Shown here one piece after another: positions 604 through 14,098 of a DNA stretch of 23,397 nt. The notes below the pieces were generated by a model. The model saw nothing but the letters and a program-made list of their open reading frames with translations, made no database searches and was not told the origin of the DNA. A program made the position numbers and the translations under genes. The stretch comes from a virus: the IMG/VR virus record IMGVR_UViG_3300035670_001268, positions 1-23,397 of that record, one strand, 5' to 3'. How positions within the stretch are numbered: the first letter of the stretch is position 1; each line of letters opens with the position of its first letter.

Positions 604-1287
604 ATGGCGACGAAAAAAAAGGTAGCCGAAAAACGGTCGACGCCCGCAGCGGAGACGGTGGAGGTCAAGCTGGATCCGCGCAACGTGAACCGTCACGGCG
701 AGCGGTCGCTTGGGGCCGTGGAGAAGTCGGTCAAGGATCTGGGCGGGGGCCGGTCGATCGTGGTTGACAAGACGGGGACCATCATCGGCGGGGAGGCGAC
801 GTACCACGCAGCCGTCAAGGCGGGGCTCCGCTTGAAACCAATCCACACGTCGGGAGACGAACTGGTGGTGGTTGTTCGTGACGACCTCGACCCAGATGAT
901 CCTCGTCGACGTCTGCTGGCGATCGCCGACAACCGAACCTCCCAGTTGTCGGACTTCGATCATGCCAAACTGGCCGCCGAGTTGGAGGCGATCGGGCAGG
1001 AGTCCGAGGCGGCTCTGGTCGAGGCAGCGGGTTTCAACGCCGAGGAGTTGTCGACCTTGCTCGGTAGTATGCGGTGGGACGGCGTTGCCGAGGAGGATAT
1101 GCCTGCCTTCAACAAGACGACGGCCGATGGTAACGCCGTGACATTGGTTCCCCTCAAGGTCACTGAGGAACAGTGGGCGGTGATCGACCAAGCCTGTCGA
1201 CGCCTGCGGACCCGCGAGTCCGACGCCGGTGTCTCGGTCGGGCGTTGTCTGGAATTGATTTGCGCCGATTACCTCGCAGGGGAGTGA
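604..1287 (+). CDS. ParB/Srx-fold nuclease-domain protein
   Basis: The 227-residue product begins at ATG 604, preceded by GTGAGGTAGG. The same frame is open further upstream, but that part overlaps the preceding gene and lacks a good ribosome site. Residues of about 18-100 resemble the ParB N-terminal domain: LDPRNVNRHGE (the NxR.H region), then a predicted helix, then SIVVDKTGTIIGGEAT, where the usual GHxR signature is degenerate (GGEAT). A helical region follows (LAIADNRTSQLSDFD). Phage ParB-like proteins of this type are commonly found beside DNA methylases and terminases and may act as nucleases or DNA-binding proteins. The D12 methylase gene begins four bases downstream, which fits that pattern. 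The domain call is fairly secure; the activity is not known. Confidence 0.75.
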   Translation: MATKKKVAEKRSTPAAETVEVKLDPRNVNRHGERSLGAVEKSVKDLGGGRSIVVDKTGTIIGGEATYHAAVKAGLRLKPIHTSGDELVVVVRDDLDPDDPRRRLLAIADNRTSQLSDFDHAKLAAELEAIGQESEAALVEAAGFNAEELSTLLGSMRWDGVAEEDMPAFNKTTADGNAVTLVPLKVTEEQWAVIDQACRRLRTRESDAGVSVGRCLELICADYLAGE

Positions 1288-1291
1288 TGCC

Positions 1292-2038
1292 GTGCCTGAC
1301 GTCGACCGCGTGCCACGTCTGTTTTCCTACTACGGTTCCAAGCACCGGATCGCGGGCAGGTACCCTGCCCCGCGTCCCGGCGATACGATCGTAGAGCCGT
1401 TTGCAGGAAGCGCGTCCTATGCGTGCCTGTACTATCGGCACGCCGTCAAACTGTTTGACGTCAACCCGCGAGTGGTAGGCGTGTGGGATTTCCTGATCCG
1501 TTCGACGCCTGAGGACATTCTGCGGCTGCCGCTGTTCAGCGACGGATACGAGGACGTCCGGCAGATGCCCGTCTGCCAAGAGGCGCGATGGTTGATCGGC
1601 TGGTGGGTGAACAACTGCACTTCCGAGCCGTGCAATGAGGCGAGCAAGTGGATGCGGTCAGGCTTGCGTCCGACGTGCCAATGGGGCGAAGTGACGAGGC
1701 AACGCGTAGCGGACGGCGCGGCTCGGATCAAACATTGGACAATCGAACAGCGGTCTTTTGCCACGCTGTCGGAACTCGACGGTCGGCTGGATATAACGTG
1801 GTTTATCGACCCGCCGTACCAAGGTTCGGCCGGTCGGCATTACACCTTCGATCGCCTGGACTACGGACTCCTTTCGCTGTGGTGTCGATCGCGGCGGGGG
1901 CAGGTAATTGTGTGCGAAAATTACGGCGAGGCCGATTGGCTGCCGTTCATGCCCTTGGTGCGCCAGCGGAGCGCGGTCAACGATGGGCGACGCAAGCGAG
2001 GCAAGGTCGAAGGCATCTGGCATCGGAGGTCCGCGTGA
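1292..2038 (+). CDS. D12-class DNA adenine N6-methyltransferase
   Basis: This 248-residue protein has the signatures of the Dam/D12 family, which transfers a methyl group from SAM to the N6 of adenine in DNA. FSYYGSK lies near residues 11-17, the SAM-binding motif EPFAGSASYA at about 35-44, and the catalytic DPPY at residues 173-176, followed by QGSAGRHYTF. A GTG start at 1292 is preceded by GGAG in the end of the ParB-like gene. The stop overlaps the start of the DpdA-like gene (GTGA at 2035-2038), so the two are probably translationally coupled. The target site cannot be read from the sequence. In phages such enzymes are often orphan methylases that protect DNA from host restriction, and coupling to a base-replacement enzyme supports that role here. 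Confidence 0.9.
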   Translation: MPDVDRVPRLFSYYGSKHRIAGRYPAPRPGDTIVEPFAGSASYACLYYRHAVKLFDVNPRVVGVWDFLIRSTPEDILRLPLFSDGYEDVRQMPVCQEARWLIGWWVNNCTSEPCNEASKWMRSGLRPTCQWGEVTRQRVADGAARIKHWTIEQRSFATLSELDGRLDITWFIDPPYQGSAGRHYTFDRLDYGLLSLWCRSRRGQVIVCENYGEADWLPFMPLVRQRSAVNDGRRKRGKVEGIWHRRSA

Positions 2039-3012
2039 ACCTGCTGGTATCCTACTACTTCATTCGGGCGACACGGGACTGGATTCGCTACCTGGACGCA
2101 TTATGGGGCGTGCCGTCAGTTCGTTGGCTGATGGACTCCGGGGCCTACTCCGTGGGCGAAGGTGGTCAGCCTATCACCGTCGAGGAGTACGCCGCCTTCT
2201 GCAAGGCGACAGAAAGGCATTGGTGGCAGTACATTACCTTGGACGTGATAGACAACAAGGTAGCCACAGCGGCGAATCTGGCCCGCATGGTAGAGGAGTT
2301 CGGCCTGCGTCCGATGCCTGTCTTGACGATTGACGAGGACGAATCCGTGTTTCCGTCATTGGTCGACGTGAATCCCTACGTATGCCTGTCTGGTGGCGTC
2401 ACGGAAAACACGACCGCCTATGGTGCGAGGATTGAACGGTGTTGGCGAATGGTGGGTGGCGAGTGCAAGATCCACGGGCTAGGGTTTACCCGGCCCGAAT
2501 CGCTTGCCGTGCGTTGCCACTCCTTTGATTCCTCGTCCTGGCGATCGCCGATTCGGTTCGGCAATTTGCACCTGTTCGACGCCGCCACGGGGCGTATCGT
2601 TGCGTACCCTTGGAGGAAGTGGGTCCGAGGTAACAGGTTCGACGCCTTGCCGATCGACCTCAAGGAGTTGCTTGTCGCCCACGGTGTTACCCCAGACCTA
2701 TACGCCTCTCGGCTTATCACGCATGGGGAATACAGTTTCGTCCAACTTGTAAGCCTGATGGCGTGGTTGCGGTACATGCGGCTTTGTCGGTCGCGAGGGG
2801 TGCGGCTGTTTTTGGCTGTTATGTTGCCTCGATTCCTCGGGGCGATTGCCGCCGTGTGCCGACACGCCGACGAGGCTATGCAATGGATTGACTGGCGATC
2901 CGCGCAGAAGGACGGGCGATGGTTGGAGGCAATGCGTAAGGAGAAATCCTACGGCGAGTTGGAATACATCCGACGCGCCTTTGAGTTCGAGGCTGGCAAA
3001 ACACGTTATTAA
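2035..3012 (+). CDS. dpdA: DpdA-like 7-deazaguanine DNA transglycosylase
   Basis: This 325-residue protein looks like a distant tRNA-guanine transglycosylase (TGT-fold) homologue of the phage DpdA group, which exchanges guanine in DNA for a 7-deazaguanine base. Features matching TGT in order are: MDSGAYS with Asp34 (general acid/base Asp of the DSGG motif), ITLDVID with Asp70 (base-recognition position), CLSGGV, KIHGLGFT (the MGVG-like strand), and SFDSSSW with Asp165, the candidate nucleophile. The C-terminal zinc motif of tRNA-acting TGTs is not evident, as expected for a DNA-acting paralogue. The GTG start has GGAGG five bases upstream and overlaps the methylase stop. The Gat-QueC gene starts 13 bases downstream. 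The alternative, a tRNA-acting TGT, is unlikely given the short length and phage operon setting. Confidence 0.82.
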   Translation: MNLLVSYYFIRATRDWIRYLDALWGVPSVRWLMDSGAYSVGEGGQPITVEEYAAFCKATERHWWQYITLDVIDNKVATAANLARMVEEFGLRPMPVLTIDEDESVFPSLVDVNPYVCLSGGVTENTTAYGARIERCWRMVGGECKIHGLGFTRPESLAVRCHSFDSSSWRSPIRFGNLHLFDAATGRIVAYPWRKWVRGNRFDALPIDLKELLVAHGVTPDLYASRLITHGEYSFVQLVSLMAWLRYMRLCRSRGVRLFLAVMLPRFLGAIAAVCRHADEAMQWIDWRSAQKDGRWLEAMRKEKSYGELEYIRRAFEFEAGKTRY

Positions 3013-3025
3013 AAGGGACGCCAAG

Positions 3026-4258
3026 GTGTGTTCAATCTTCGGAGCTTATTCACGGAACGGAAACGTGTCGTCGGCATTGCTATCGCGTATCCGCGACGCT
3101 GCACGGGATAGAGGTCGCGACGGCGGGAGGGTCGAGTGGTACAACCTACAGGCAGGCAACGCGTGCCTGGGGAACTGGCGAGCGACGCCTACGCCCGAGG
3201 TCGAGCAGGCGCCGTTGCAGCCTTATGACCGCCTCGTCCACAACGGGACGATTGCCAACGACAGGGACCTTGGAGCCAAGCCTGGGGAGGTCGACTCGAT
3301 GGCGTTGGCTCGACACGTCGACCGAAGATCCCTGCGGGTGTTCGTCAATTCTCTGGCACAGGTCAAAGGGTCGTATGCCATTGCCTGCGTTGCGGAGAAC
3401 TCGGGTACGGTGTACTTGGCCTGCAACTATAAGCCGATCCACTTCTTGACGGTTGGGGATTCGGTCTATTTCTCCTCGATGGAACGGCACCTGTCGCCGT
3501 TGTGTTCCTGGGGTGTGCGGCCTGTTCAGTTGCCACCATACTCGGCGGTCAACCTGTCGTCCCGTCAATTGCTGTTCATCCCTCGGGATCGTGCCGCAAA
3601 GGACCGCGTGGTCGTCGTCGCGAGTGCGGGCTTGGACTCGACGGTTGCGGCTACCAAATACGTCCGCGAAGGCAAGGACGTCTGCCTGTTGCACTTCACC
3701 TACGGCTGCCGAGCGGAGTCGAGGGAGGTCGATCGGGTGCGAAGGATTGCCGACGCCTTGGCGTGTGCCTGCCGAGTGCTGCCGCTGCCTTATGAGGATC
3801 TGAAAGGGAATTCGCCGTTGCTGTCCAAGGAGGCGAGAATTGCCGAAGGCATCGAGGGTTCGGAGTTCGCCCATGAATGGGTACCCGCTCGGAATCTGGT
3901 CATGCTGTCACATGCTGTCGCCTTCGCTGAGGCGCACGGCTACGGCGTCGTCGCCTTGGGGAATAACCTTGAGGAGTCTGGGGCATACCCAGACAACGAG
4001 GAGCAGTTTACGCACCTGTTGGACAAGGCAGTCGAGTATGCGGTCGCCGACGGGCATCAAGTGTCGATTGAGGCTCCGCTGGGCAACCTAATGAAACATG
4101 AAATTGCCAACCTGGGCATTGCACTTGACGCCCCGTTGGATCTGACGTGGTCCTGTTACAAGGATGGCGATTTCCATTGCGGCGAGTGTGGTCCTTGCTT
4201 CATGCGTCGGACGGCCTTTGCGCGGATCGGCTTGGTAGATCCCGTGTTTTCAACGTAA
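3026..4258 (+). CDS. gat-queC: Class II glutamine amidotransferase-QueC fusion (Gat-QueC)
   Basis: This is a 410-residue two-domain protein. The GTG start at 3026 puts Cys at residue 2, the position of the N-terminal nucleophile in class II amidotransferases. The same frame is open upstream, but only this start gives the required geometry, and AAAGGGA precedes it. WRATPTPE (51-58), VHNGTIAN (71-78) and EVDSMALARH match further amidotransferase motifs. From about residue 195 the protein is QueC-like: PP-loop SAGLDS (200-205), EWVPARNLVMLS, and zinc ligands Cys377, Cys385, Cys388 and Cys391. QueC makes preQ0 from 7-carboxy-7-deazaguanine with ATP and ammonia. Gat-QueC proteins are known in Crenarchaeota, where they are linked to archaeosine formation. 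Here the fused domain may supply ammonia or convert preQ0 to the amidine. Confidence 0.92.
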   Translation: MCSIFGAYSRNGNVSSALLSRIRDAARDRGRDGGRVEWYNLQAGNACLGNWRATPTPEVEQAPLQPYDRLVHNGTIANDRDLGAKPGEVDSMALARHVDRRSLRVFVNSLAQVKGSYAIACVAENSGTVYLACNYKPIHFLTVGDSVYFSSMERHLSPLCSWGVRPVQLPPYSAVNLSSRQLLFIPRDRAAKDRVVVVASAGLDSTVAATKYVREGKDVCLLHFTYGCRAESREVDRVRRIADALACACRVLPLPYEDLKGNSPLLSKEARIAEGIEGSEFAHEWVPARNLVMLSHAVAFAEAHGYGVVALGNNLEESGAYPDNEEQFTHLLDKAVEYAVADGHQVSIEAPLGNLMKHEIANLGIALDAPLDLTWSCYKDGDFHCGECGPCFMRRTAFARIGLVDPVFST

Positions 4259-4269
4259 GGAGTGGTCGG

Positions 4270-4986
4270 GTGCAACTGTTCAGGCTGGATCATATTGAGG
4301 CCATAATGCGAGCCTTGGACGAGGACGAATACAGCGACAGCGAACAGGATGTGGTGGCCGGAGTCGAGGAGATCCCAGACCATACTGCAACCATCCTGGA
4401 CCTGTACCTGGGCAACCTTGTGGCGTCGGACAAGGTATTAGAGGTCGGGTGTGGTAGTGGTGATCTGTTCGGGCGTTATGGCATTACGCATGGCGTGGAA
4501 CCTAACCCTCGCCGTTTTGCAGAGGCGACCAAAAAAGGAGCGGGATGCGTTGCCGTTGCCCGTGGCGTGTCGGAGTGCCTGCCTTATGGCGACGGCGAGT
4601 TTGCTGCCTTGATTATGTTGAACGGATTTTTCCAGGTTCGGAGTGAACTGGAATCCCTTATCGAGTTTAACCGCGTATTGAGGATCGGCGGTCGATTGAT
4701 CCTTAACCTCCTGACGGACGACCGTGTGGACGTGGTGTGCGGGCGTGTCGTCGGTTGGAGAAACGAGGTAAGGCTTGCAGGTCAATTCGGACTCGGCTTG
4801 TTGGCGGCACACACCCATGATGCCGGTCCTAGATTCCCCGATGGAAGCCAACAGGAAACGACCGTCTTGGTGTTTGAAAAGGTACGCCATTTCGATCCTC
4901 GCTACCTGCGTCTGCCTCAGGTTGTCGGCGATCCTACGGCGGTAATTCGCAACTATGTTCCCGAGCGGGATTGGAGGTTGATATGA
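4270..4986 (+). CDS. Class I SAM-dependent methyltransferase
   Basis: This 238-residue protein has a classic Rossmann-type SAM-binding site: VLEVGCGSG (residues 56-64, motif I), HGVEPNPRR (motif II acidic residue), LPYGDGEFAALIMLN and FNRVLRIGGRLILN (post-I regions), as in Methyltransf_11-like enzymes. The GTG start at 4270 has AAGGAG seven bases upstream; the frame stays open further upstream inside gat-queC, so the start was chosen by ribosome site. The stop overlaps the next start as ATGA at 4983-4986. The DPPY-type DNA-methylase motif is absent, so this is a small-molecule or general methyltransferase, not a standard DNA adenine methylase. Its place inside the deazaguanine operon suggests it acts on the modified base or on a sugar attached to it. 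The substrate is unknown. Confidence 0.85.
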   Translation: MQLFRLDHIEAIMRALDEDEYSDSEQDVVAGVEEIPDHTATILDLYLGNLVASDKVLEVGCGSGDLFGRYGITHGVEPNPRRFAEATKKGAGCVAVARGVSECLPYGDGEFAALIMLNGFFQVRSELESLIEFNRVLRIGGRLILNLLTDDRVDVVCGRVVGWRNEVRLAGQFGLGLLAAHTHDAGPRFPDGSQQETTVLVFEKVRHFDPRYLRLPQVVGDPTAVIRNYVPERDWRLI

Positions 4987-5789
4987 CCAAGAAGGTGGCA
5001 ATCGTTGGAATCAGCGGATTGGGTATGGCCCATGCCTGCGCGTGCGGTCGGGTTGGCTATCAGGTTGTGGCAATAGTCGACCGCAACCGGGAGGCGTTGG
5101 ATCGCGCGAGGAATCGGTGGGTCAACCGGTTCGACGGGTTGGAGGAGGAGACACCTGTGCAGGCAGGGTGTGTGTACGCGGAGACGTTCAGTTGGTTGCT
5201 GGGAGACACGAATCCCGATGCGGTGATTCTGGCGACGCCTCCGCATGTTTTCGAGCAACTGATTTGGCAGGTAGGGTCGGTATGGCCAAATGCTGTCGTT
5301 TGTTGCGAAAAACCTGTTTGGCTCTCCGAGCAGGCAATGGAGTTCATTGGGCAGCGGTTGCGCATGTCGGCCCCCTACGTCCACCTGTCAGGTCTCAAGG
5401 AGGCGTTGGCGTCGGCCGGCAATGTGACGATCCACAGTACCCGCCCGACAATGACAACGCGGTGGGGCTATCGCCTAACCATGCTGTCGGACTACATGCC
5501 GCACTTTGGCGCAATGTTGTGGCATCACCTTGGGCGAGTCGATCGGTACGGGTGGGAACGACTAGAGGCAGGCGTGGATTGGTTCAAGGGCGACCTTCGA
5601 TGGGGCGACCGTTTGTTTCACATCGACGCCAGGCGTGGCGAGGATGTGCCGTATGCCTGGTTCCTTGACGGGCAGCGGCTGGAATGGGAGTTGGAACTGT
5701 TCGATCGGCAAATGGTCGTTGGCAACTTCGGCATAGAGCCAGCGGGGATTCGGGCTGTCAACGATTTGGTAGGAGGGAAGGAGGCATGA
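4983..5789 (+). CDS. Gfo/Idh/MocA-like NAD(P)-dependent oxidoreductase, short form
   Basis: The 268-residue product begins with a dinucleotide-binding fold: KVAIVGISGLGMAHA (residues 4-18) and VVAIVDRNREAL, with an Asp after the second strand that favours NAD(H). AVILATPP and the EKP motif (Glu109-Lys110-Pro111) identify the Gfo/Idh/MocA family, whose members oxidise or reduce sugars, sugar nucleotides and related small molecules. It is shorter than the usual 330-400 residues, so the C-terminal sheet domain is probably reduced. GGAGG precedes the ATG. Both ends overlap their neighbours as ATGA, which argues for co-translation with the methyltransferase and glycosyltransferase. I infer a role in modifying a sugar or side chain for the phage base; the substrate cannot be read. 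Confidence 0.72.
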   Translation: MTKKVAIVGISGLGMAHACACGRVGYQVVAIVDRNREALDRARNRWVNRFDGLEEETPVQAGCVYAETFSWLLGDTNPDAVILATPPHVFEQLIWQVGSVWPNAVVCCEKPVWLSEQAMEFIGQRLRMSAPYVHLSGLKEALASAGNVTIHSTRPTMTTRWGYRLTMLSDYMPHFGAMLWHHLGRVDRYGWERLEAGVDWFKGDLRWGDRLFHIDARRGEDVPYAWFLDGQRLEWELELFDRQMVVGNFGIEPAGIRAVNDLVGGKEA

Positions 5790-6787
5790 ACAATGCACAC
5801 CCAAAGGTCTTGGTAGTCGGCAAACTTGGCTACCATGAAAGGAATATCACGGAGCCGATTCTGCGGGAGTTGAGGGAACAAGGCGCGGCCATTCATCGGG
5901 TTGGAGGCAGCCTGGACTTTTTCGTTCCTGACGCCTTCGACGAGGTCCGGTTGTCCGTTTCAATGGCTGCCCGTGTTGACGCCTCCCAATGGGACGTCGT
6001 GTTTTGCGTCGACTGGTGGAACTTCGCCGTACCGTCGCTGGCGTGGTCTGCGCAGCGAACATGGACGCCTTTGGTGGGCATCTGCCACGGGTCGGTCGGC
6101 CTTGAAAGTGACGTGGCATTGGACGTGCCTGGAGCGAAGGATTATGAGGCGTACCTTCTGTCCGTGTTCTCGGAAATCTATACCCATGCCCCGTGGGTAT
6201 CGGAGGCGGTCAAGTGTTCGGAATCTCCCAGATCCATTTGCCAATTGTCGCCGTTGCCGTTTCCCTACACCGAGCAACTGTCCCGGGTCCGAACCGATCG
6301 ACAGCCAACCAAGGCGGTAATTTACGCGCACCGCTGGGCTCCCGACAAAGGGAACGACGTATTTGCGGATTTTGCCCGCGAGGTTCGCAGGCAGGGCCTC
6401 CCTTTCCGATTGATCGTAACGGACGAGGCAGCCAGAACGGATAACCGGCTGGACGGCTTGAATGTCGAGGTCATGCCAAGAATGTCCCAACAGGCATTGC
6501 GGGAACTGGCATACCACGTCGGAGGCTACGCGTGGAGTTCTGCCCGCTCGGAGATTGCCGCCTACGCGGTACATGACCTGATTTCCTACGGACTTCATCC
6601 GTTGGTCAGCTACCATCCTGCCTACGATCACCTTCCCGCGTTGTCCCATTGGAACGACGTAAAGGAAGCGGCGAGGATCGTCGATGGCGGCGTCGGTATG
6701 TGGTCGCGAACCTGGGCACATATCACGGAAGGATGGCGTGATAATGCCCGCAACATAGCGGAGGCGATTTTGCGATGGACAAGGTAA
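5786..6787 (+). CDS. GT-B fold glycosyltransferase, possibly related to the queuosine mannosyltransferase type
   Basis: This 333-residue protein has the build of a GT4-like retaining glycosyltransferase. The N-terminal half begins VLVVGKLGYHERN. The C-terminal half opens with AHRWAPDKGNDVFADF (from residue 181), the donor-domain strand with the conserved R..(D)KG pattern. It contains SEIAAYAVHDL, in which Glu256 and Asp264 form an E-x7-D variant of the usual E-x7-E signature. The HRW..DK block and the following S.ARSE...G.HPLVSYHPAYDHLP pattern recall the tRNA-queuosine mannosyltransferase family (GTDC1), which glycosylates a 7-deazaguanine nucleoside. That link is from memory of the family and should be treated as tentative. 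A strong AGGAGGGAAGGAGG lies upstream, and the ATG overlaps the oxidoreductase stop. Confidence 0.78.
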   Translation: MNNAHPKVLVVGKLGYHERNITEPILRELREQGAAIHRVGGSLDFFVPDAFDEVRLSVSMAARVDASQWDVVFCVDWWNFAVPSLAWSAQRTWTPLVGICHGSVGLESDVALDVPGAKDYEAYLLSVFSEIYTHAPWVSEAVKCSESPRSICQLSPLPFPYTEQLSRVRTDRQPTKAVIYAHRWAPDKGNDVFADFAREVRRQGLPFRLIVTDEAARTDNRLDGLNVEVMPRMSQQALRELAYHVGGYAWSSARSEIAAYAVHDLISYGLHPLVSYHPAYDHLPALSHWNDVKEAARIVDGGVGMWSRTWAHITEGWRDNARNIAEAILRWTR

Positions 6788-7197
6788 CGGTAACGCGTCG
6801 GCTGACGTTTTGCGCAGGGCATCGACTGGTCGGGCATGACGGCGGCTGCGCCCATATTCACGGACACAATTACGTGGCGGAAATCGAGGTATCTGCGCCG
6901 TATCTTGACGAGGTCGGACGCGTTGTGGACTTCTCGGTCATCAAGGACAAGGTCGGATCGTGGATTGACGACAATTGGGACCATGCGTTTCTGGTCAATC
7001 GTTTGGACGATGATTTGTGCCAGTTCCTCGTGGTGCGTCGAAACCGTCTGTGGATATTCGACGGCAACCCGACCGCCGAGCGCATGGCCGAAATCCTGAT
7101 GGAAATATCGCGGGCTTTGCTGCCTCCCATGTTCACGGTCGAGTCCGTGACCGTCTGGGAAACGGAGAACTGTTGGGCAACGGTGAAAGGAGGCTGA
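6775..7197 (+). CDS. queD: QueD, 6-carboxytetrahydropterin synthase
   Basis: This 140-residue protein belongs to the PTPS/QueD family and is of typical length. It converts dihydroneopterin triphosphate to 6-carboxy-5,6,7,8-tetrahydropterin, the second step toward preQ0. Zinc ligands are His16 (in FCAGHRL), His29 and His31 (in CAHIHGHNY); the catalytic Cys is Cys25. RVVDFSVIK, WDHAFL (Asp69, His70), PTAERMAE and the substrate-binding Glu129 in VWETEN are all present, so the enzyme looks intact. The ATG lies inside the end of the glycosyltransferase gene (13-base overlap), and queE starts one base after its stop. The Cys-x3-His-x-His arrangement favours QueD over the eukaryotic PTPS type. Confidence 0.95.
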   Translation: MDKVTVTRRLTFCAGHRLVGHDGGCAHIHGHNYVAEIEVSAPYLDEVGRVVDFSVIKDKVGSWIDDNWDHAFLVNRLDDDLCQFLVVRRNRLWIFDGNPTAERMAEILMEISRALLPPMFTVESVTVWETENCWATVKGG

Positions 7198-7198
7198 C

Positions 7199-7792
7199 GT
7201 GTCGAAGGTGTACGCGGTCAATGACGTTTTTTATTCCGTGCAAGGCGAAGGCGAGCGGTTCGGGCTGCCGGTCGTGTTTGTTCGGCTGGCAGGCTGTAAC
7301 CTCGCCTGCGACTTTTGCGACACGGAATTTAACAGCCACGTCAAACGAACGGCGGCAGGCATTGTCGACCTTGCTCGGCACGTCGCGCACGAACATTGCC
7401 GACAGGTGATATTCACAGGCGGGGAGCCGTTGTTGCAATTGGACGCGGAGTTGTGTTCGGCGTTCAAGAAGGATGGCTGGTACGTGGCGATCGAAACGAA
7501 CGGATCAAAGGAGATCCCAGACGATGCCCACGTGGATTACGTGTCTTGCTCGCCGAAAGGCGCGGAGCATACGGTGAAGATCCAACGCGCGGACGAGTTG
7601 CGTTATGTTCGGGGTTACGGGCAGGGCATCCCGCGCCCCGCGTTGCGAGGAGTGTTGGCTCGGTTTATTTCGCCGAGGTTTGATGATGGCAAACTGCACC
7701 GCGACACGTTGGAGTGGTGCGTCCAGTTGGTAAAGGAGAATCCTGGATGGCGTCTGTCCTTACAAAACCACCAATTGTTGCGCCTGGCGTAG
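7199..7792 (+). CDS. queE: QueE, 7-carboxy-7-deazaguanine synthase (radical SAM)
   Basis: This 197-residue radical SAM enzyme makes 7-carboxy-7-deazaguanine from the QueD product. VFYSVQGEGERFG is the QueE N-terminal signature. The 4Fe-4S cluster ligands are Cys33, Cys37 and Cys40, in the CNLACDFC arrangement with the usual three- and two-residue spacing. TGGEPLLQ and the QueE-like C-terminus (WRLSLQNHQLL) follow. The GTG start follows AAAGGAGG at 7186-7193 in the end of queD. The last 46 bases overlap the start of the FolE fusion gene in another frame, a large overlap that suggests coupled translation. All visible catalytic features are intact. Confidence 0.95.
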   Translation: MSKVYAVNDVFYSVQGEGERFGLPVVFVRLAGCNLACDFCDTEFNSHVKRTAAGIVDLARHVAHEHCRQVIFTGGEPLLQLDAELCSAFKKDGWYVAIETNGSKEIPDDAHVDYVSCSPKGAEHTVKIQRADELRYVRGYGQGIPRPALRGVLARFISPRFDDGKLHRDTLEWCVQLVKENPGWRLSLQNHQLLRLA

Positions 7793-8661
7793 TATTTGAG
7801 GCAACGTGGAGCGGCGTGCAGGAGAGGTGTCACGCGTTGGTTCAACGTAGCCGCAAGCCTCGCTGTTTATTCGGCGTGCCGACAGGCGGTGCGATTGTGG
7901 CGTCCTATCTGGCGGGGATCTGGGATCTGCCGCTTGTCACCCAACCGAAAGGCGATTGCCTTGTGGTCGACGATTTGGTGGACAGCGGCAGAACCTTGCA
8001 GCCTTACGCGGAGCGAGGATTCAAGGTCGACGCGTTGTACCGCAAGCCGCACAGTCCTGCCGACCTTGCCCCGGACGCGACCTTGATAACCGGTTGGGTT
8101 CGGTTTCCGTGGGAGACGGACCACGCACCGACAGACGCGGTAACGCGGTTGCTCCAATACGTCGGCGAGGATGTGAACCGCGAGGGCTTGGCGGACACGC
8201 CACGCCGATACGTGAAGGCGTTGGCTGAGTTGACGCGGGGATACCGAGAAGACCCACGGGCGATCCTGTCGCGGACCTTTAGCGAGGACATTGACGAAAT
8301 GGTAGTGGTCAAAGGCATCGAGTTCCATAGCCTGTGCGAACACCACATCCTACCGTTTCACGGCATTGCCCACGTTGCCTACCTGCCAAATGACCGCGTT
8401 GTCGGTCTGTCCAAGATTCCCCGCTTGGTGCATTGCTACGCGAGGCGGTTGCAGATACAGGAGCGACTTACCTCCCAAGTCGCCGACGCCATCATGGCAC
8501 ACTTACAGCCGCAAGGCGTCGGCGTGATAGTCAGGGCGCACCACTCCTGTATGTCCATGCGTGGCGTCGGCTGTCATGGCGATATGGTGACGTCGACGCT
8601 ATTGGGGTCGTTCCAGCACACCGAAGTCCGAGCCGAGTTCCTGCGATTGATCGAGGTATAG
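7747..8661 (+). CDS. folE: Phosphoribosyltransferase-GTP cyclohydrolase I (FolE) fusion
   Basis: This 304-residue protein carries two domains. The C-terminal part, from about residue 130, is GTP cyclohydrolase I: DTPRRYVKALAEL, IEFHSLCEHHILPFHG with zinc ligands Cys197 and His200, VVGLSKIPRLVHCYARR, and HHSCMSMRG with Cys268. It makes dihydroneopterin triphosphate, the entry step to preQ0. The N-terminal part has VPTGGAIVASYLAG and the PRPP-binding motif VVDDLVDSGRT (residues 73-83), then RKPHS and GWVRFPWE. This order recalls bacterial xanthine-guanine phosphoribosyltransferase (Gpt), whose tail contains WIEQPWD. FolE alone is usually about 180-220 residues, so the extra domain is real. The ATG at 7747 has AAAGGAGA upstream, inside queE. 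The fused domain may return free guanine to GMP. Confidence 0.93.
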   Translation: MASVLTKPPIVAPGVVFEATWSGVQERCHALVQRSRKPRCLFGVPTGGAIVASYLAGIWDLPLVTQPKGDCLVVDDLVDSGRTLQPYAERGFKVDALYRKPHSPADLAPDATLITGWVRFPWETDHAPTDAVTRLLQYVGEDVNREGLADTPRRYVKALAELTRGYREDPRAILSRTFSEDIDEMVVVKGIEFHSLCEHHILPFHGIAHVAYLPNDRVVGLSKIPRLVHCYARRLQIQERLTSQVADAIMAHLQPQGVGVIVRAHHSCMSMRGVGCHGDMVTSTLLGSFQHTEVRAEFLRLIEV

Positions 8662-8665
8662 GCAG

Positions 8666-9223
8666 ATGGCGATACGCAAAGGTAACCGTCCCGGCCAGGG
8701 ACGCAAGAAGCAGCCGCCCGAGTTACACGTCCTCAAGGGAACGCACCGCGAGGACAGGCATGGACCTGTTGCCGCCGTGCTACCTATTCGCGGCGAGCGT
8801 CCGACGTGCCCTGACTACCTGTTGGAGTTCGACCCTGATTGCCTGGGGTACTGGGACGCGGTGTGCGACCGTATGGAACGGGACGGCTTGGGGTACGTGG
8901 CAGCGGCGGTTTCCTTGGAGGCTTTTGTTGCGGTGTATGCGAACTGGCGAAAGGTACTGAAGGCGCAGGCAAAGTCCGCAATCGTGTTGGCTCGAACCGA
9001 ACACCGCAAAGGGCTGAACGAAAAAGGCCAGGAAATCATCGAAAAGGTCGTGGAGTTCAAGCGGAACCCGATCACCGTTGAACTGCGGCACCACACGGAG
9101 CAGTTGGTTCGCCTGGCATCGGAACTCGGTCTGACACCCGCGTCCCGTGCCCGACTGATGGCGGACCTGAATATCGGCAACGTGCGCCGTGAAGGCGGTG
9201 TCCAACGTAGAATCCGAGGGTAG
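8666..9223 (+). CDS. terS: Terminase small subunit, P27 family
   Basis: This 185-residue protein starts RKGNRPGQGRKKQPPELHVL and continues LKGTHREDR, the basic N-terminal pattern of P27-type small terminase subunits (a GRKP...LKVLKGN-like motif). The middle is helical (YWDAVCDRMERDGLG...AFVAVYANWRKVL). Near the end the ELGLTPASRARL motif is typical of the family and precedes a basic tail. The small subunit binds phage DNA and directs the large subunit to begin packaging. It starts four bases after the folE fusion and ends three bases before terL. Packaging genes are therefore directly attached to the DNA-modification operon. Confidence 0.88.
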   Translation: MAIRKGNRPGQGRKKQPPELHVLKGTHREDRHGPVAAVLPIRGERPTCPDYLLEFDPDCLGYWDAVCDRMERDGLGYVAAAVSLEAFVAVYANWRKVLKAQAKSAIVLARTEHRKGLNEKGQEIIEKVVEFKRNPITVELRHHTEQLVRLASELGLTPASRARLMADLNIGNVRREGGVQRRIRG

Positions 9224-9226
9224 GCG

Positions 9227-11218
9227 ATGGTGCGGTTGCTGAACAGTCTGACGGACGTGGATCGTCTGGCAAAGGAATGTCTCCTGCGCCGAGAGGTTGC
9301 CGTGTGGCGCAAGGTCGACGAAACCACGAAAGCATGGTGCAGAAACGCCAACGATATACGGGCAGCGGTTGCGGGGCATCGCTTCCAGGTGGTACACGAT
9401 GAATGGGAGGGTGGGGCGTTTCCTGTCTGGTGGATTGAACGATACTGCCGCCTTTACGAAGGCGAGTTCGCGGGGCACCCGCTGCGGCTGCGAGGACAGC
9501 ATGGCGTGTCGCTGGACTGGCCTATTCACGACCGCTGGGATTCGGAGCAGGCGAAGGACTTTGCCGTCGCCCGAGCGGAGCGGTATGCCGAGGACTATTG
9601 GGATGGCGTGCCGGTGGATTGGCAGTACGAGGTAATTATGCGGCTGTTCGGCTGGCGTAAGTTTTCCGAGCGGTACGCGCGTTGGATACGTCGGTTTACC
9701 GAGGCGTCGATCTGGGTTCCAAAGAAGAATAAGAAGTCTCCGACGCTGGCCGCGCTCGGCTTGTATATCCTGATTGGCGAAGGGGAGCCCGGGCAGAAGG
9801 TGTTTGTGGCTGCAAAGGACGGCGGGCAGGCGCGAGGCATCGTCGGACAACACGCCTTGGAGATGATTCGGCAGTCGCCGGAACTGGACGAGGAGTGTGT
9901 TATCAATCTCCAAAAGATGCAAATTACCTACACGCCGACGCGGTCGATCCTGCTGCCGCTGTCGTCAGGCAGCAAAAGTCACCAGAAGGCCAAGGAAGGA
10001 CTCAATGGCAGCCTGCTTGTCGACGAGGTACACGTCGTCGACCGCGAGTATATGGAGCGCATCGGGCGGGCCGGGATCAGTCGAGCGGAGCCTTTGAAGG
10101 TCGAGGTAAGCACGGCAGGCGACGATCCTGATTGCTACGGCAAGGAACGGTATGACTATGGACAGCGAGTGCAAGCCGGGACCGTGCGGGATCTGGCCTT
10201 GTTGTTTGTGGACTACTCGATTCCGCAAGACCTGTCGCCCGACGACTTCGCCAATGACCCGATAGGGTACGGACAGAGGGCAAATCCAGCCTGGGGCCAT
10301 ACAATCGACCCGGAGGAGTTTCTCACGGATTACGACCGATCCAAGCTGTCGATCCGTACCATGATTTCCTTCCTGATGTACCGCTGCAATAAATGGGCAC
10401 GCACCGCGTCGCCGTGGCTGCGGATCAGCGATTGGGAACGCGGGCACACGGGACGAGAGTTGTCGGAATGGGACGGCTGTAGTTGCGTCCTGTCCCTGGA
10501 CAAGTCCAAAACGCAGGACATGACCTCGATTGTGGCAACCTTCTGGGAGGCGTCGGATCGACACGATTGGCAATGGGTGGAGGAGATCGGCACCAATGTC
10601 TGTGCCTTCTGCGGCGCTCAGGCGTATGCGGACGAGGAGGCCCCGGAAACGGGCTGCCCTGATTCCATCGACCTGTACCAGTATCCATTTTTCTGGCTGC
10701 CCGAGGCGACTGCTAAGGCCCGGGCGAAGGACGCGGACTTCCTCGGTTGGGCTGCGCGAGGCGAACTGAACCTCATTCCCGGCGAGGTAATTCAGGACGG
10801 ATACCTCAAGGCGACCTTGCGTTGGTTGTGCGAGAGGTTTCAGGTCGAAGGGATCTATTACGACCGGACCTACTGTGAGGACATAACACAATGGTGTGAA
10901 GAGGAGCTAGGCATTGACCGAATCGAGTTCCCGCAAAACTCTGGCACAATGTCCGAGCCAATCGTCACCTTCGAGCGACGCGTCCTGCAGGCGATGATCC
11001 TGCACCCTCGCCACAGTGTCCTCGATTGGCAGGCAGGGCATGTCACGGTCAAGGAGTATCCGAACGGTCGACGGATTCTGGTCAAGCCGACCGGAGACGA
11101 CGTCAAGAAGATTGACGGCATGGTCGCCAGCGTTATGGGGTCCGCTGCGGCTTTGGAGGCGATCAAGAATGACCCATCGCTGTTGGGCGGTGATTCCATT
11201 TCGGGCATGTGGGATTGA
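9227..11218 (+). CDS. terL: Terminase large subunit (ATPase and nuclease)
   Basis: This 663-residue protein is the packaging motor. The ATPase domain has a Walker A-like VPKKNKKS (residues 164-171) and a Walker B LLVDEVH (263-269, with Asp266 and Glu267). Phrases such as GVSLDWPIHDRWDSEQ and KVFVAAKDGGQARGIVGQHA fit the Terminase_1 family. The C-terminal nuclease domain begins around residue 420 (VLSLDKSKTQDMTSIVATF, first acidic residue) and includes IYYDRTYCEDIT (second acidic region). An unusual short insertion carries CAFC (Cys459, Cys462) and a third cysteine at 477, between the first nuclease strand and the region starting YQYPFFWLPE. The gene is close to typical length or slightly long. 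ATG 9227 follows terS by three bases. Confidence 0.93.
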   Translation: MVRLLNSLTDVDRLAKECLLRREVAVWRKVDETTKAWCRNANDIRAAVAGHRFQVVHDEWEGGAFPVWWIERYCRLYEGEFAGHPLRLRGQHGVSLDWPIHDRWDSEQAKDFAVARAERYAEDYWDGVPVDWQYEVIMRLFGWRKFSERYARWIRRFTEASIWVPKKNKKSPTLAALGLYILIGEGEPGQKVFVAAKDGGQARGIVGQHALEMIRQSPELDEECVINLQKMQITYTPTRSILLPLSSGSKSHQKAKEGLNGSLLVDEVHVVDREYMERIGRAGISRAEPLKVEVSTAGDDPDCYGKERYDYGQRVQAGTVRDLALLFVDYSIPQDLSPDDFANDPIGYGQRANPAWGHTIDPEEFLTDYDRSKLSIRTMISFLMYRCNKWARTASPWLRISDWERGHTGRELSEWDGCSCVLSLDKSKTQDMTSIVATFWEASDRHDWQWVEEIGTNVCAFCGAQAYADEEAPETGCPDSIDLYQYPFFWLPEATAKARAKDADFLGWAARGELNLIPGEVIQDGYLKATLRWLCERFQVEGIYYDRTYCEDITQWCEEELGIDRIEFPQNSGTMSEPIVTFERRVLQAMILHPRHSVLDWQAGHVTVKEYPNGRRILVKPTGDDVKKIDGMVASVMGSAAALEAIKNDPSLLGGDSISGMWD

Positions 11219-11227
11219 GGAGAAAGC

Positions 11228-11437
11228 ATGGAACGCTGGTTAAGTGTCGTGGACAGATGGACGGACGGCAGTACAATGCTGGCCGGCACCGGATTGATCG
11301 CCTGGGCGATTGGACGCCTACATTCGGTCGAGGCGTCGGTTCTGTTTGTCGGTGTGGCGCTGGTGACGGCCTCTGGTCTGTCGATTCTGGCAAGGCGTAG
11401 CAAGCCGAACAGGGAGCCGAAGGAGGACGGGATATGA
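11228..11437 (+). CDS. Small two-helix membrane protein between terL and portal
   Basis: This 69-residue peptide has two hydrophobic segments, about residues 16-31 (TMLAGTGLIAWAIGRL) and 35-54 (EASVLFVGVALVTASGLSIL), with a positive tail (ARRSKPNREPKEDG). GAGGAGAAAGC lies just upstream and the stop overlaps the portal start as ATGA, so it is very likely translated. I do not recognise a family. Its position between terminase and portal is unusual for a membrane protein. A holin-like, portal-docking or prohead-assembly role is possible but none is shown. Confidence 0.7.
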   Translation: MERWLSVVDRWTDGSTMLAGTGLIAWAIGRLHSVEASVLFVGVALVTASGLSILARRSKPNREPKEDGI

Positions 11438-13209
11438 GTTGGTTGTCGGGGTTGTTTTCGCCGCCCGTCGCTGCCGAGGTAACAGACAGCGATTGGTCCA
11501 CGGTGAATGTCGGCAGTTGGCGAAACCTCGCAGGCGGCCAGACCGTTGCGGGAGTTCACGTTGACCATGCCGAGGCAATGAACTGTGCCACGGCCTTCGC
11601 CTGCACGCGGGCCTTGGCTGAAACGCTGGCAACGCTGCCACCGATCGTCTATCGGGATCAGGAGGACGGCGTCAGGCAGCGGGCGTCAAATACGGACGCC
11701 TGGAACCTGTTGCACGATACGCCTTGCCCGTCGAGGCGGTGTGTCGGTTCCACGGGGTTTTACGACCAGGGCACCGTGCGAATAGTCAATCGAGGCAACG
11801 CCTTCGCCGAGATACAACGCGATGGACGCGACCGCCCGATAGGACTCTGGCCGGTACATCCCTCGCGGGTTCGCCCTTGGGTGGACGACAACGGCGACCT
11901 GGAATACCACGTATACCTGGACGAAGCGACAAGGCGCAATCCGGTCGGGTACACCTTCTACACCGTGCCTGCCCGCGACATGCTAAACGTGGTCGGTTTC
12001 AACAGCGAGGACGGTGTGCTGGCTCCCGGCGTCGTGGCGCACGCCATGCAGGAACTCGGCTTGGACATTGCCTCGCAGCGGTACGGATCGACGTGGTTCG
12101 GCAACGGGGCGCGACCGAACGGCGTGGTACGGCACCCAGGGTTCATCAAGAACAAGGATCGGCGGGATGAGTTCCGATCGGATATCAATCGCATCCACGG
12201 CGGCATTGACAACTGGAACAAGGTTGGCGTTTTGTGGGAGGGAGCCGAGTGGCAGAATATAGAGGTCTCGCCTGAGCAGGCGCAGTTCCTTGGCACTCGA
12301 CAATGGCAGGCGAAGGTACTGTGCCGTCTGTGGAACGTGCCCCCTGCGATTGTTCAGATATACGACGAATTCAAATTCTCCTCGGTCGACGCCATGATCC
12401 GGTGCTTCGTCATGCTGTCGATCCGCCCCCTTTGCGTCCGGTGGGAGCGTGCCATCAACTCGCAGGTACTTCGGACGGCTATCAACGGCGTGGAACTGTC
12501 AGCCTTCGACCAGCGCTACCTGTTGGAGTTCGCGCTGGAGGCGTTGCTGCGCGGCGATCCCGAAACGCAAGCCAAGGCGGACACGTTGTACGAACAATGG
12601 GGCGTCCTGACGGTAGACGAGATCCGCCGGCGCCACAACCTGAATCCGCACCCGAATGGCGTCGGGTCGGAGCCTATTGCTCCGCTGAATTACACCACCC
12701 TGGCTAAAATGATAGCGGGCTTAGTGCAAGGCAATCAGACGTCCTCGCAGACGTCCTCGCAGGCGAGCGAGAAGGCAGCGCTGGCGGGCGTTGGCTGCGG
12801 AGACGTGTCAACAGACGGAAACGCCGCTGACGCCGCCTACGCCCGATATACAGCCGAAGTGCTGAACGAGGCGTACCATCGCCTTATGGCTGTCGAGTCA
12901 CGCAAGGCGAGGGCCGCTGCGGCGGATAGCCGAAAATTCTTCGCCTGGATGGACGAGTTCTACGGCGACGACAAATGGCCGCAGACGCTGGCCGAGGCGT
13001 TGCGCGTCGGTGTACGCGGCTGGTGTGACGCCAACGGCGTTGACGGAAATCCCGACGCTTTGGCGAAGTCGATCGCCGACGCGCATTGCCGGGAGAGTCG
13101 GGAGCAATTGTTGCAGGCAGCCGAATCGCCGCCTGCGGAGTTTGTTCGCAAGGTCGCATCCACCACGACACGGTGGGCCGATCGAACTGTGGTTTTGCCT
13201 CCCGTTTGA
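11434..13209 (+). CDS. Portal protein, HK97 family
   Basis: This 591-residue protein matches the HK97-type portal fold. It opens MSWLSGLF, then NCATAFACTRALAETLATLPPIVYRD (helix and strand of the wing domain), WNLLHDTPCP, GNAFAEIQRDGRDRPIGLWPVHPSRV, the clip-region NPVGYTFYTVPARDMLNVVGF, GVVRHPGFI, and WQAKVLCRLWNVPPAIVQIYDEFKFSSVDAM in the stem and crown region. It forms the dodecameric channel through which DNA is packaged. After residue 430 a Gln/Ser/Thr-rich stretch with a small DNA repeat leads into a helical C-terminal extension. The gene overlaps the small membrane peptide gene upstream and is followed after 16 bases by the protease. Confidence 0.9.
   Translation: MSWLSGLFSPPVAAEVTDSDWSTVNVGSWRNLAGGQTVAGVHVDHAEAMNCATAFACTRALAETLATLPPIVYRDQEDGVRQRASNTDAWNLLHDTPCPSRRCVGSTGFYDQGTVRIVNRGNAFAEIQRDGRDRPIGLWPVHPSRVRPWVDDNGDLEYHVYLDEATRRNPVGYTFYTVPARDMLNVVGFNSEDGVLAPGVVAHAMQELGLDIASQRYGSTWFGNGARPNGVVRHPGFIKNKDRRDEFRSDINRIHGGIDNWNKVGVLWEGAEWQNIEVSPEQAQFLGTRQWQAKVLCRLWNVPPAIVQIYDEFKFSSVDAMIRCFVMLSIRPLCVRWERAINSQVLRTAINGVELSAFDQRYLLEFALEALLRGDPETQAKADTLYEQWGVLTVDEIRRRHNLNPHPNGVGSEPIAPLNYTTLAKMIAGLVQGNQTSSQTSSQASEKAALAGVGCGDVSTDGNAADAAYARYTAEVLNEAYHRLMAVESRKARAAAADSRKFFAWMDEFYGDDKWPQTLAEALRVGVRGWCDANGVDGNPDALAKSIADAHCRESREQLLQAAESPPAEFVRKVASTTTRWADRTVVLPPV
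12737..12760 (+). repeat. Two tandem copies of a 12-base repeat in the portal gene
   Basis: CAGACGTCCTCG occurs twice in tandem in frame and encodes QTSSQTSS, followed by a partial third unit (CAGGCG). It lies in the low-complexity linker between the portal core and its C-terminal extension and looks like a simple coding expansion. Confidence 0.8.
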
Positions 13210-13225
13210 CAGAAAGGGTACTCGA

Positions 13226-14098
13226 ATGTTCGGAAGTCCTGTTTTAATCGCTGCCTCGTACCTGCCCCGCTATTCGCGGCGGGCCAATCTGCGGCAAGAT
13301 TTGACCCCGTCCGATATCTCCCTGGAAGGGATCGACGTGGACAAGGTTCTGGCCGCGATGGACTCGCCTCGCCTGACGGTACGCAACGGCGTGGCAATCA
13401 TCCCTGTGACCGGGGCCATTGAATACAAGGCGTCCCTCTGGGGCTGGTTCTTTGGAGGGACGTCCATCACCGGCTTGCGGAGTCAGTTTCGAGCCGCGTT
13501 GGCGGACGATCAAGTTGACCGCATCCTGTTCGACGTCGACAGCCCGGGCGGCGAATACTACGGCCTGCCCGAGTTCGCCAACGAGGTATTCAAGGCACGG
13601 GACGTCAAACCGTCCACCGCAATCGTCAACCCGCTGATGGCGTCTGCCGCGACGTGGATCGGAACGTCTGCGGAGAAGGTCTATTCGATCCCGAGCGGCT
13701 TCGCTGGTTCGGTCGGCACGCTGGTCGTGCTGGCATCGTGGGCAGAGGCATATAAGGCGGCGGGGATCGACATTCGGATCATCCGCAACCCTGAATGGAA
13801 GGCAGAGTCGAATCCCTACGAACCGATCTCCGATTCCTTCGTGGAATACGAACAGGGCGTGGTGGACACGATAACGGCAGAGTTCCACAAGGCACTCGCG
13901 GATCGCCGGGGCGTGACAGCCAAGGAAGCGGCGGAGCAGTTCGGGCAAGGCCGCATGATGGACGCGAAGGCAGCGGTCAAGGCGGGTCTGTTGGACGGCG
14001 TCAAAACGGTGGACGAGGTCTTGGGAATGACGGTCAAGCGGTCGACCGTTTCCGCCTCGGGACGTCGCCGCAACATGGCCCCGCCTCGTCGGTATTGA
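13226..14098 (+). CDS. Head maturation protease, S49/ClpP-like
   Basis: This 290-residue protein resembles the SppA/S49 family used as prohead proteases by HK97-like phages. GVAIIPVTGAIEYK (residues 54-67) precedes DVDSPGGEYYG (Asp105-Gly109 oxyanion region). NPLMASAATWIGTSA follows, with Ser140 as candidate nucleophile, and then IPSGFAGSVGTLVV. RNPEWKAESNPYEPIS contains Lys192, the candidate catalytic Lys of the Ser-Lys dyad. DAKAAVKAGLLDGVKTVDEVL near the end is the typical family helix. It would process scaffold or the capsid N-terminus during head maturation. The ATG at 13226 has AGAAAGGG upstream; the frame is open further back but overlaps the portal. The basic end (SGRRRNMAPPRRY) may interact with nucleic acid or be removed. 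Confidence 0.88.
   Translation: MFGSPVLIAASYLPRYSRRANLRQDLTPSDISLEGIDVDKVLAAMDSPRLTVRNGVAIIPVTGAIEYKASLWGWFFGGTSITGLRSQFRAALADDQVDRILFDVDSPGGEYYGLPEFANEVFKARDVKPSTAIVNPLMASAATWIGTSAEKVYSIPSGFAGSVGTLVVLASWAEAYKAAGIDIRIIRNPEWKAESNPYEPISDSFVEYEQGVVDTITAEFHKALADRRGVTAKEAAEQFGQGRMMDAKAAVKAGLLDGVKTVDEVLGMTVKRSTVSASGRRRNMAPPRRY

Follow-up and report, generated by a model that had tools for sequence, protein, structure and literature searches.

A deazaguanine operon with three additional genes

To our knowledge, the 7-deazaguanines present in phage DNA are small bases (preQ0, preQ1, G+, amide and similar). The glucosyltransferases of phage T4, which transfer a sugar to 5-hydroxymethylcytosine (hmC), act after replication. 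In phage 9g, Gat-QueC, which combines a glutamine amidotransferase with QueC, and the DNA-guanine transglycosylase DpdA put dG+ into DNA (PMC6884629). The window analysed here, the whole 23,397-base stretch of IMG/VR virus record IMGVR_UViG_3300035670_001268, carries an operon on a single strand (positions 604-8661) in which genes of this pathway are accompanied by a trio encoding a class I S-adenosylmethionine (SAM) methyltransferase, a Gfo/Idh/MocA oxidoreductase (GFO) and a probable GT-B glycosyltransferase (GT). We read it as a probable DNA-hypermodification operon (probability of roughly 0.6), in which the GT would put a sugar on 7-deazaguanine in phage DNA, the GFO would alter that sugar and, in this phage, the methyltransferase would add a methyl cap.

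The trio lies between gat-queC and queD on the positive strand, as the original prediction had placed it, and consists of three genuine open frames: the methyltransferase gene from GTG to TGA (4270-4986), the GFO gene from ATG to TGA (4983-5789) and the GT gene from ATG to TAA (5786-6787). The two ATGA overlaps described there are located at 4983-4986 (methyltransferase/GFO) and 5786-5789 (GFO/GT), the overlap of the GT gene with queD is 13 bases long, with the QueD ATG at 6775, and Shine-Dalgarno-like sequences are found 5′ of the trio genes. The codon usage of this translationally coupled trio, expressed as the cosine of relative synonymous codon usage, is 0.978 against the other deazaguanine genes and 0.965 against the structural genes; because it fits both, a recent insertion of foreign DNA seems unlikely and was rejected as the origin of the trio.

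Recurrence of the GFO and GT genes beside gat-queC

Comparative analysis used 263 loci, most taken around Gat-QueC and including 127 distinct gat-queC loci. A scan with a Gat-QueC alignment yielded 80 loci, among them that of metagenomic phage L038, in which a GFO (30% identity) and a GT (31%, nearly full length) lie directly 3′ of Gat-QueC and a second GT copy is present. A further scan, seeded with the L038 Gat-QueC, identified metagenomic phage L139, in which genes encoding FolE, Gat-QueC, GFO, GT, DpdA and ParB overlap or touch; comparison of the three earlier GTs with the L139 GT by hhalign gave a probability of 97% (E 4e-11). Across the 263 loci, a GT profile matched in L038 and L139 only, with a GFO adjacent each time, and a GFO profile matched in the same two loci plus two archaeal loci, where the matches are marginal (about 1e-4) and on the opposite strand. 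Single-protein scans of IMG/VR with GT, DpdA and GFO returned no relatives, scans with GT and GFO alignments returned L038 again and nothing else, and the GT alignment had no match in 84,980 genomes. The search of other phages for the whole trio beside dpdA, suggested in the original prediction, recovered the GFO and GT pair, placed in L139 between gat-queC and dpdA, but not the methyltransferase with it.

The GC content of the three phages is 59.5% (window), 52.6% (L038) and 32.8% (L139), and in the Gat-QueC tree the grouping of their Gat-QueC proteins as one clade was rejected (approximately unbiased test, p 3e-40), this grouping having been chosen by presence of the pair rather than from the tree, which is a quick one with some long branches. 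The starred branches of the tree alone force only two changes. Since these Gat-QueCs do not form a clade and the GC content spans 33-60%, the pair has been gained more than once or often lost, and common descent of a single phage line does not suffice to explain its linkage to gat-queC. The GFO and GT pair extends beyond this contig, recurring beside gat-queC in unrelated phages.

In place of FolE, QueD and QueE, the L038 locus encodes at 7324-8365 a YhhQ-type (Vut_1) transporter together with a small protein that matches FolE/T-fold weakly; from this gene content, the phage may import a precursor instead of synthesizing it.

The cassette in cultured jumbo phages

Among 50,697 phage records, relatives of the L139 GT were found in four only, the Xanthomonas phages PhiXhv-12, PhiXhv-15 and PhiXhv-16 and the Erwinia phage Ep032, all as strong matches. 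In the same records the window GFO had weak matches to PhiXhv-15 and Ep032, and no match was obtained for the window GT and methyltransferase or for the L038 and L139 GFOs. The PhiXhv-15 genes form a contiguous cassette in the order Gat-QueC (9855-11378 of locus L264), PIG-L (11375-11983), GT (11986-13089) and GFO (13093-13941), and Ep032 has the same order with 99.8-100% identity, so that in both phages a PIG-L gene of the GlcNAc (N-acetylglucosamine) deacetylase type stands between Gat-QueC and the GT. Both also carry QueD and FolE. PhiXhv-15 further encodes, at genome positions 11630-13336, a 568-aa protein of the tRNA-guanine transglycosylase (TGT) type in which ADSGGFQ, LDTP, HALG, DSSS and CTCPIC (CxCxxC), marks of TGT/DpdA, can be read; its profile match is weak and it was missed by the DpdA profiles used. 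Upstream of the four-gene block lie unknown proteins and a 545-aa GNAT acetyltransferase-type protein (PhiXhv-15 111596-113233; L264 5514-7151), which may have a freed amino group as its target.

These gene orders bear on whether the trio might instead glycosylate and methylate virion proteins, a role put forward for some actinobacteriophages, or host surface glycans, its place in the operon reflecting co-expression with the structural genes downstream. Terminase, portal, S49 protease and capsid genes do follow directly 3′ of the operon, after FolE; in Rhodococcus phages, pairs of glycosyltransferase and methyltransferase have been taken to indicate glycosylated virions (PMC13313380), and phage GT clusters often serve surface polysaccharide (PMC7824862). 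However, across differing gene orders the pair tracks gat-queC and not the structural genes, the L139 pair sits inside the gat-queC-dpdA interval, and the neighbours in PhiXhv-15 are Gat-QueC and PIG-L with no virion genes, making a virion or surface-glycan role unlikely.

Sequence and predicted structure of the three proteins

The window GFO (268 aa) matches PF01408 (GFO_IDH_MocA) at 32.4 bits (cut-off 24), and its catalytic set, comprising a glycine-rich loop, EKP at 109-111 and D170 and H174 of a DxxxH motif (170-174), is kept in the window, L038, L139 and PhiXhv-15. For the C-terminal alpha/beta domain typical of the family there is no Pfam C-domain match, and model confidence in that part is mostly below 50. 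The probable GT-B enzyme is weakly GT4-like and is related to proteins of L038 (two copies), L139, PhiXhv-15 and Ep032. R183, W184, D187, K188 and E256 are invariant in five GTs, and the nucleotide-sugar motif is E-x7-E in L139 and E-x7-D in the window and L038, a pattern as in retaining GT4 enzymes. Searches of Pfam at E up to 0.1 identified neither the T4 alpha- or beta-glucosyltransferase (AGT, BGT) families nor the queuosine tRNA mannosyltransferase family in this protein.

Structure prediction gave low-confidence models for both the GFO (predicted local distance difference test (pLDDT) score of 56) and the GT (pLDDT 48, predicted template modelling score (pTM) 0.39). The top Foldseek matches of the GFO are WlbA UDP-sugar dehydrogenases, and the top PDB matches of the GT are the GT-B enzymes HepE and BshA, with T4 AGT further down; because the predictions are poor, these lists serve as hints only.

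The methyltransferase carries the motif EVGCGSG and matches PF08241 (Methyltransf_11) at 29.6 bits (cut-off 21.2), with hits to generic class I Pfam profiles only and generic matches only among PDB sequences. Its translation contains no DPPY/NPPY or PCQ DNA-methylase motif, and a DNA methyltransferase role was rejected.

Core pathway and proposed base modification

Judging by intact motifs, the operon is a complete deazaguanine-DNA pathway of FolE, QueD, QueE, Gat-QueC and DpdA. FolE (7747-8661; PF01227 E 2e-68), QueD (6775-7197; PF01242 E 3e-30) and QueE (7199-7792; PF04055 E 8e-13, PHROG 2076 E 7e-33) would make 7-carboxy-7-deazaguanine, which Gat-QueC (3026-4258; PF06508 E 1e-51, PHROG 10428 E 5e-109), a dG+-type enzyme, would convert to preQ0 and then to the amidine G+. 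DpdA (2035-3012; PHROG 887 E 1e-24) would then swap guanine in phage DNA for the deazaguanine, a route established in phage 9g. Over the alignment, Gat-QueC shares 45% identity with its 9g counterpart, and it retains the Cys2 nucleophile, the HNGTIAND amidotransferase (Gln) site and the C-x7-C-x2-C-x2-C zinc site; its P-loop (residues 200-205; window 3623-3640) reads SAGLDS, not SGGLDS, a variant common to 14 other gat-queC loci. The DSGA (D34), LDV (D70) and DSSS motifs are retained in DpdA, with D34, D70 and DSS invariant in the alignment.

After DpdA, much as the T4 glucosyltransferases follow replication, the GT-B enzyme would move a sugar from a host nucleoside diphosphate (NDP) sugar to the 7-substituent of the deazaguanine. 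Either before or after this transfer, the GFO would use NAD(P) to oxidise or epimerise the sugar, and in the window phage the SAM methyltransferase would cap the sugar or the base with methyl. A host donor is proposed because no NDP-sugar synthesis family passed its cut-off in the window, L038, L139 or the related phage contig L010, all of which are fragments. No thymidylate-synthase-type enzyme for hmC or hydroxymethyluracil (hmU) was detected in the same fragments either, and glycosylation of hmC or hmU was rejected for this contig for want of that family. In PhiXhv-type phages the PIG-L gene is suggestive of an N-acetyl-amino sugar; the sugar would be an N-acetyl-hexosamine that PIG-L later deacetylates, as in bacillithiol synthesis. 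Owing to its bulk, the resulting base would protect the DNA against host nucleases, like glucosyl-hmC in T4.

Several observations weigh against a glycosylated 7-deazaguanine. The GT is only weakly GT4-like in Pfam (best 19.2 bits, under the cut-off of 29.7) and has no useful match among PDB sequences, the two structure models are poor, and the contigs scanned for rival pathways are incomplete. The pair is missing from most Gat-QueC phages in the 263-locus set, and in the jumbo phages long distances separate the cassette from queD and the TGT-type gene. Finally, dG+ offers amidine nitrogens rather than a hydroxyl as the acceptor. Arginine glycosyltransferases attach sugars to a guanidine nitrogen in proteins, and by this analogy a sugar on the amidine nitrogen of dG+ is chemically possible.

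The missing hydroxyl of G+ would also suit a pair that acts before DpdA, on the free base or an intermediate, giving a larger 7-substituent other than a simple glycoside, or a GT-B fold that performs other chemistry. In every case the pair is linked to gat-queC but not always to dpdA, known families match the GT weakly, and in bacterial locus L112 Gat-QueC stands among GT2, YhhQ-type transporter and PIG-L genes with no DpdA in 14 kb. Known DpdA-type enzymes, however, insert small bases, and R183, K188 and E256 of the GT, together with E-x7-E or E-x7-D, are motifs of sugar-nucleotide-binding GT4 enzymes; both readings together are therefore considered rather unlikely, and sugar transfer to the deazaguanine in DNA is preferred.

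The L112 operon itself (1257-10563 of JABHCC010000078.1, a metagenome-assembled genome labelled Bacteroidetes) encodes APH, GH3, three GT2 proteins, Gat-QueC, a GT2-like protein, the YhhQ-type transporter and PIG-L, a gene content that makes a deazaguanine glycoside pathway outside phages possible.

Other genes in the gat-queC slot

The Gat-QueC of L010 is 60% identical to that of the window and, by path through the tree, lies closest to it. The corresponding slot in L010 holds a Methyltransf_24 (PF13578) protein (10224-11057) and a GT2-family GT-A protein (11060-11863), both unrelated to those of the window; PF00535 was present in 3 of 50 Gat-QueC records and adjoins gat-queC in L010 only. 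Locus L217 (IMGVR_UViG_3300002219_000095, 7001-12347) encodes Gat-QueC, an unknown 314-aa protein, a SAM methyltransferase (PF13489), an unknown 323-aa protein and a TGT/DpdA-like protein. The contents of these two slots indicate that sugar- or methyl-type enzymes entered more than once. The methyltransferases near Gat-QueC differ (PF08241 in the window, PF13578 in L010 and PF13489 in L217) and are not evident homologues, and none stands beside the pair in L038, L139 or the jumbo-phage cassette. The proposal of a base both glycosylated and methylated is thus borne out unevenly: these comparisons lend strong support to a predicted sugar, through the recurring pair and the non-homologous methyltransferase and GT2 of the L010 slot, and little to a methyl group.

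The methyltransferase might conversely be the only member of the trio to serve the base, for example by making an N-methylated deazaguanine, with the GFO and GT as passengers. Methyltransferases do recur beside Gat-QueC (window, L010 and L217), and in 2023 Cui reportedly found methylated preQ1 bases in phage DNA. It is nevertheless the GFO and GT that are conserved between phages and not the methyltransferase, which leaves this explanation highly improbable.

Two further observations concern L010 and L040. Between DpdA and Gat-QueC, L010 encodes a 484-aa radical SAM protein (7533-8987) whose C-terminal half resembles a degenerate GT-A domain by eye. In L040, a 322 kb phage contig, a Gly_transf_sug-type protein and another glycosyltransferase-like protein (10985-12368) are encoded about 1 kb past Gat-QueC; they could serve surface glycans or represent another instance of the pattern.

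Remaining genes of the operon

The gene order of the full operon is ParB-like, D12 DNA methylase, DpdA, Gat-QueC, methyltransferase, GFO, GT, QueD, QueE and FolE. The first gene, on the positive strand like the others, encodes the ParB-like protein (604-1287; PHROG 620 E 3e-22), followed by a D12-class N6-adenine DNA methyltransferase (1292-2038; PF02086 25.4 bits, cut-off 22; PHROG 56 E 9e-14). ParB is also located 5′ of DpdA in phages Cracklewink and Nicole72, which share the order ParB, DpdA, (QueC in Nicole72), QueD, QueE, FolE and terminase without the trio. FolE has an N-terminal phosphoribosyltransferase-like domain (window 7747-8130; weak PF00156), a fusion that other Gat-QueC phages share, NP1 and L010 among them. 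A Gat-QueC/DpdA locus in a bacterial genome, that of Paraburkholderia adhaesiva (L092), is probably a prophage; its Gat-QueC is 54% identical to that of the window, a possible clue to the host.

Significance and comparison with known systems

More broadly, we give even odds to a mobile GT and GFO cassette, sometimes with PIG-L or a methyltransferase, that has repeatedly joined the Gat-QueC/DpdA systems of unrelated phages and makes, from dG+ or dPreQ0 in DNA, a class of base not reported before, a 7-deazaguanine bearing an oxidised or amino sugar and methylated here. In a full-text literature search, no report of a sugar-bearing 7-deazaguanine in the DNA of phages came up, although an earlier mention outside the searched literature is possible. 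If correct, a single base would unite the two major ways in which phages protect their DNA, replacing bases and glycosylating DNA; it would also present modification-dependent host defences with another target and bring a DNA-sugar chemistry that is new. Cultured phages already deposited carry the cassette (PhiXhv-15 and Ep032) or a related GT (PhiXhv-12 and PhiXhv-16), so the prediction is answerable with existing isolates.

The window shares with the dG+ system of phage 9g the same five enzymes, the Cys2 and zinc sites of Gat-QueC and the DpdA catalytic motifs, however three genes lie between gat-queC and queD where 9g has none, and the DpdA proteins are only about 23% identical. The predicted oxidoreductase step recalls the UDP-sugar 3-dehydrogenases WlbA and WbpB, also Gfo/Idh/MocA enzymes with EKP and DxxxH, although the window GFO is shorter and the likeness comes from a low-confidence model. 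Bacillithiol synthesis by BshA (GT4) and BshB (PIG-L) offers a parallel in the Foldseek match of the GT to BshA and in the PIG-L gene beside the GT in PhiXhv-15 and Ep032; the window operon has no PIG-L gene, its GT is about 11% identical to BshA, and the acceptor differs. With the T4 alpha- and beta-glucosyltransferases the GT would have in common a GT-B fold, as predicted here, and sugar transfer to a modified phage DNA base, AGT being a lower Foldseek match, whereas the window GT lacks a Pfam match to either enzyme, its predicted acceptor is 7-deazaguanine rather than hmC, and the hmC pathway was not found. Mannosyl- and galactosyl-queuosine of animal tRNA provide a precedent for a sugar on 7-deazaguanine (PMC8654956), however in tRNA rather than DNA and on a cyclopentene diol that dG+ does not possess, and the window GT has no Pfam match to the transferase. 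Glucosyl-hmC in T4 and mannosyl- and galactosyl-queuosine in tRNA are the nearest precedents for the predicted base.

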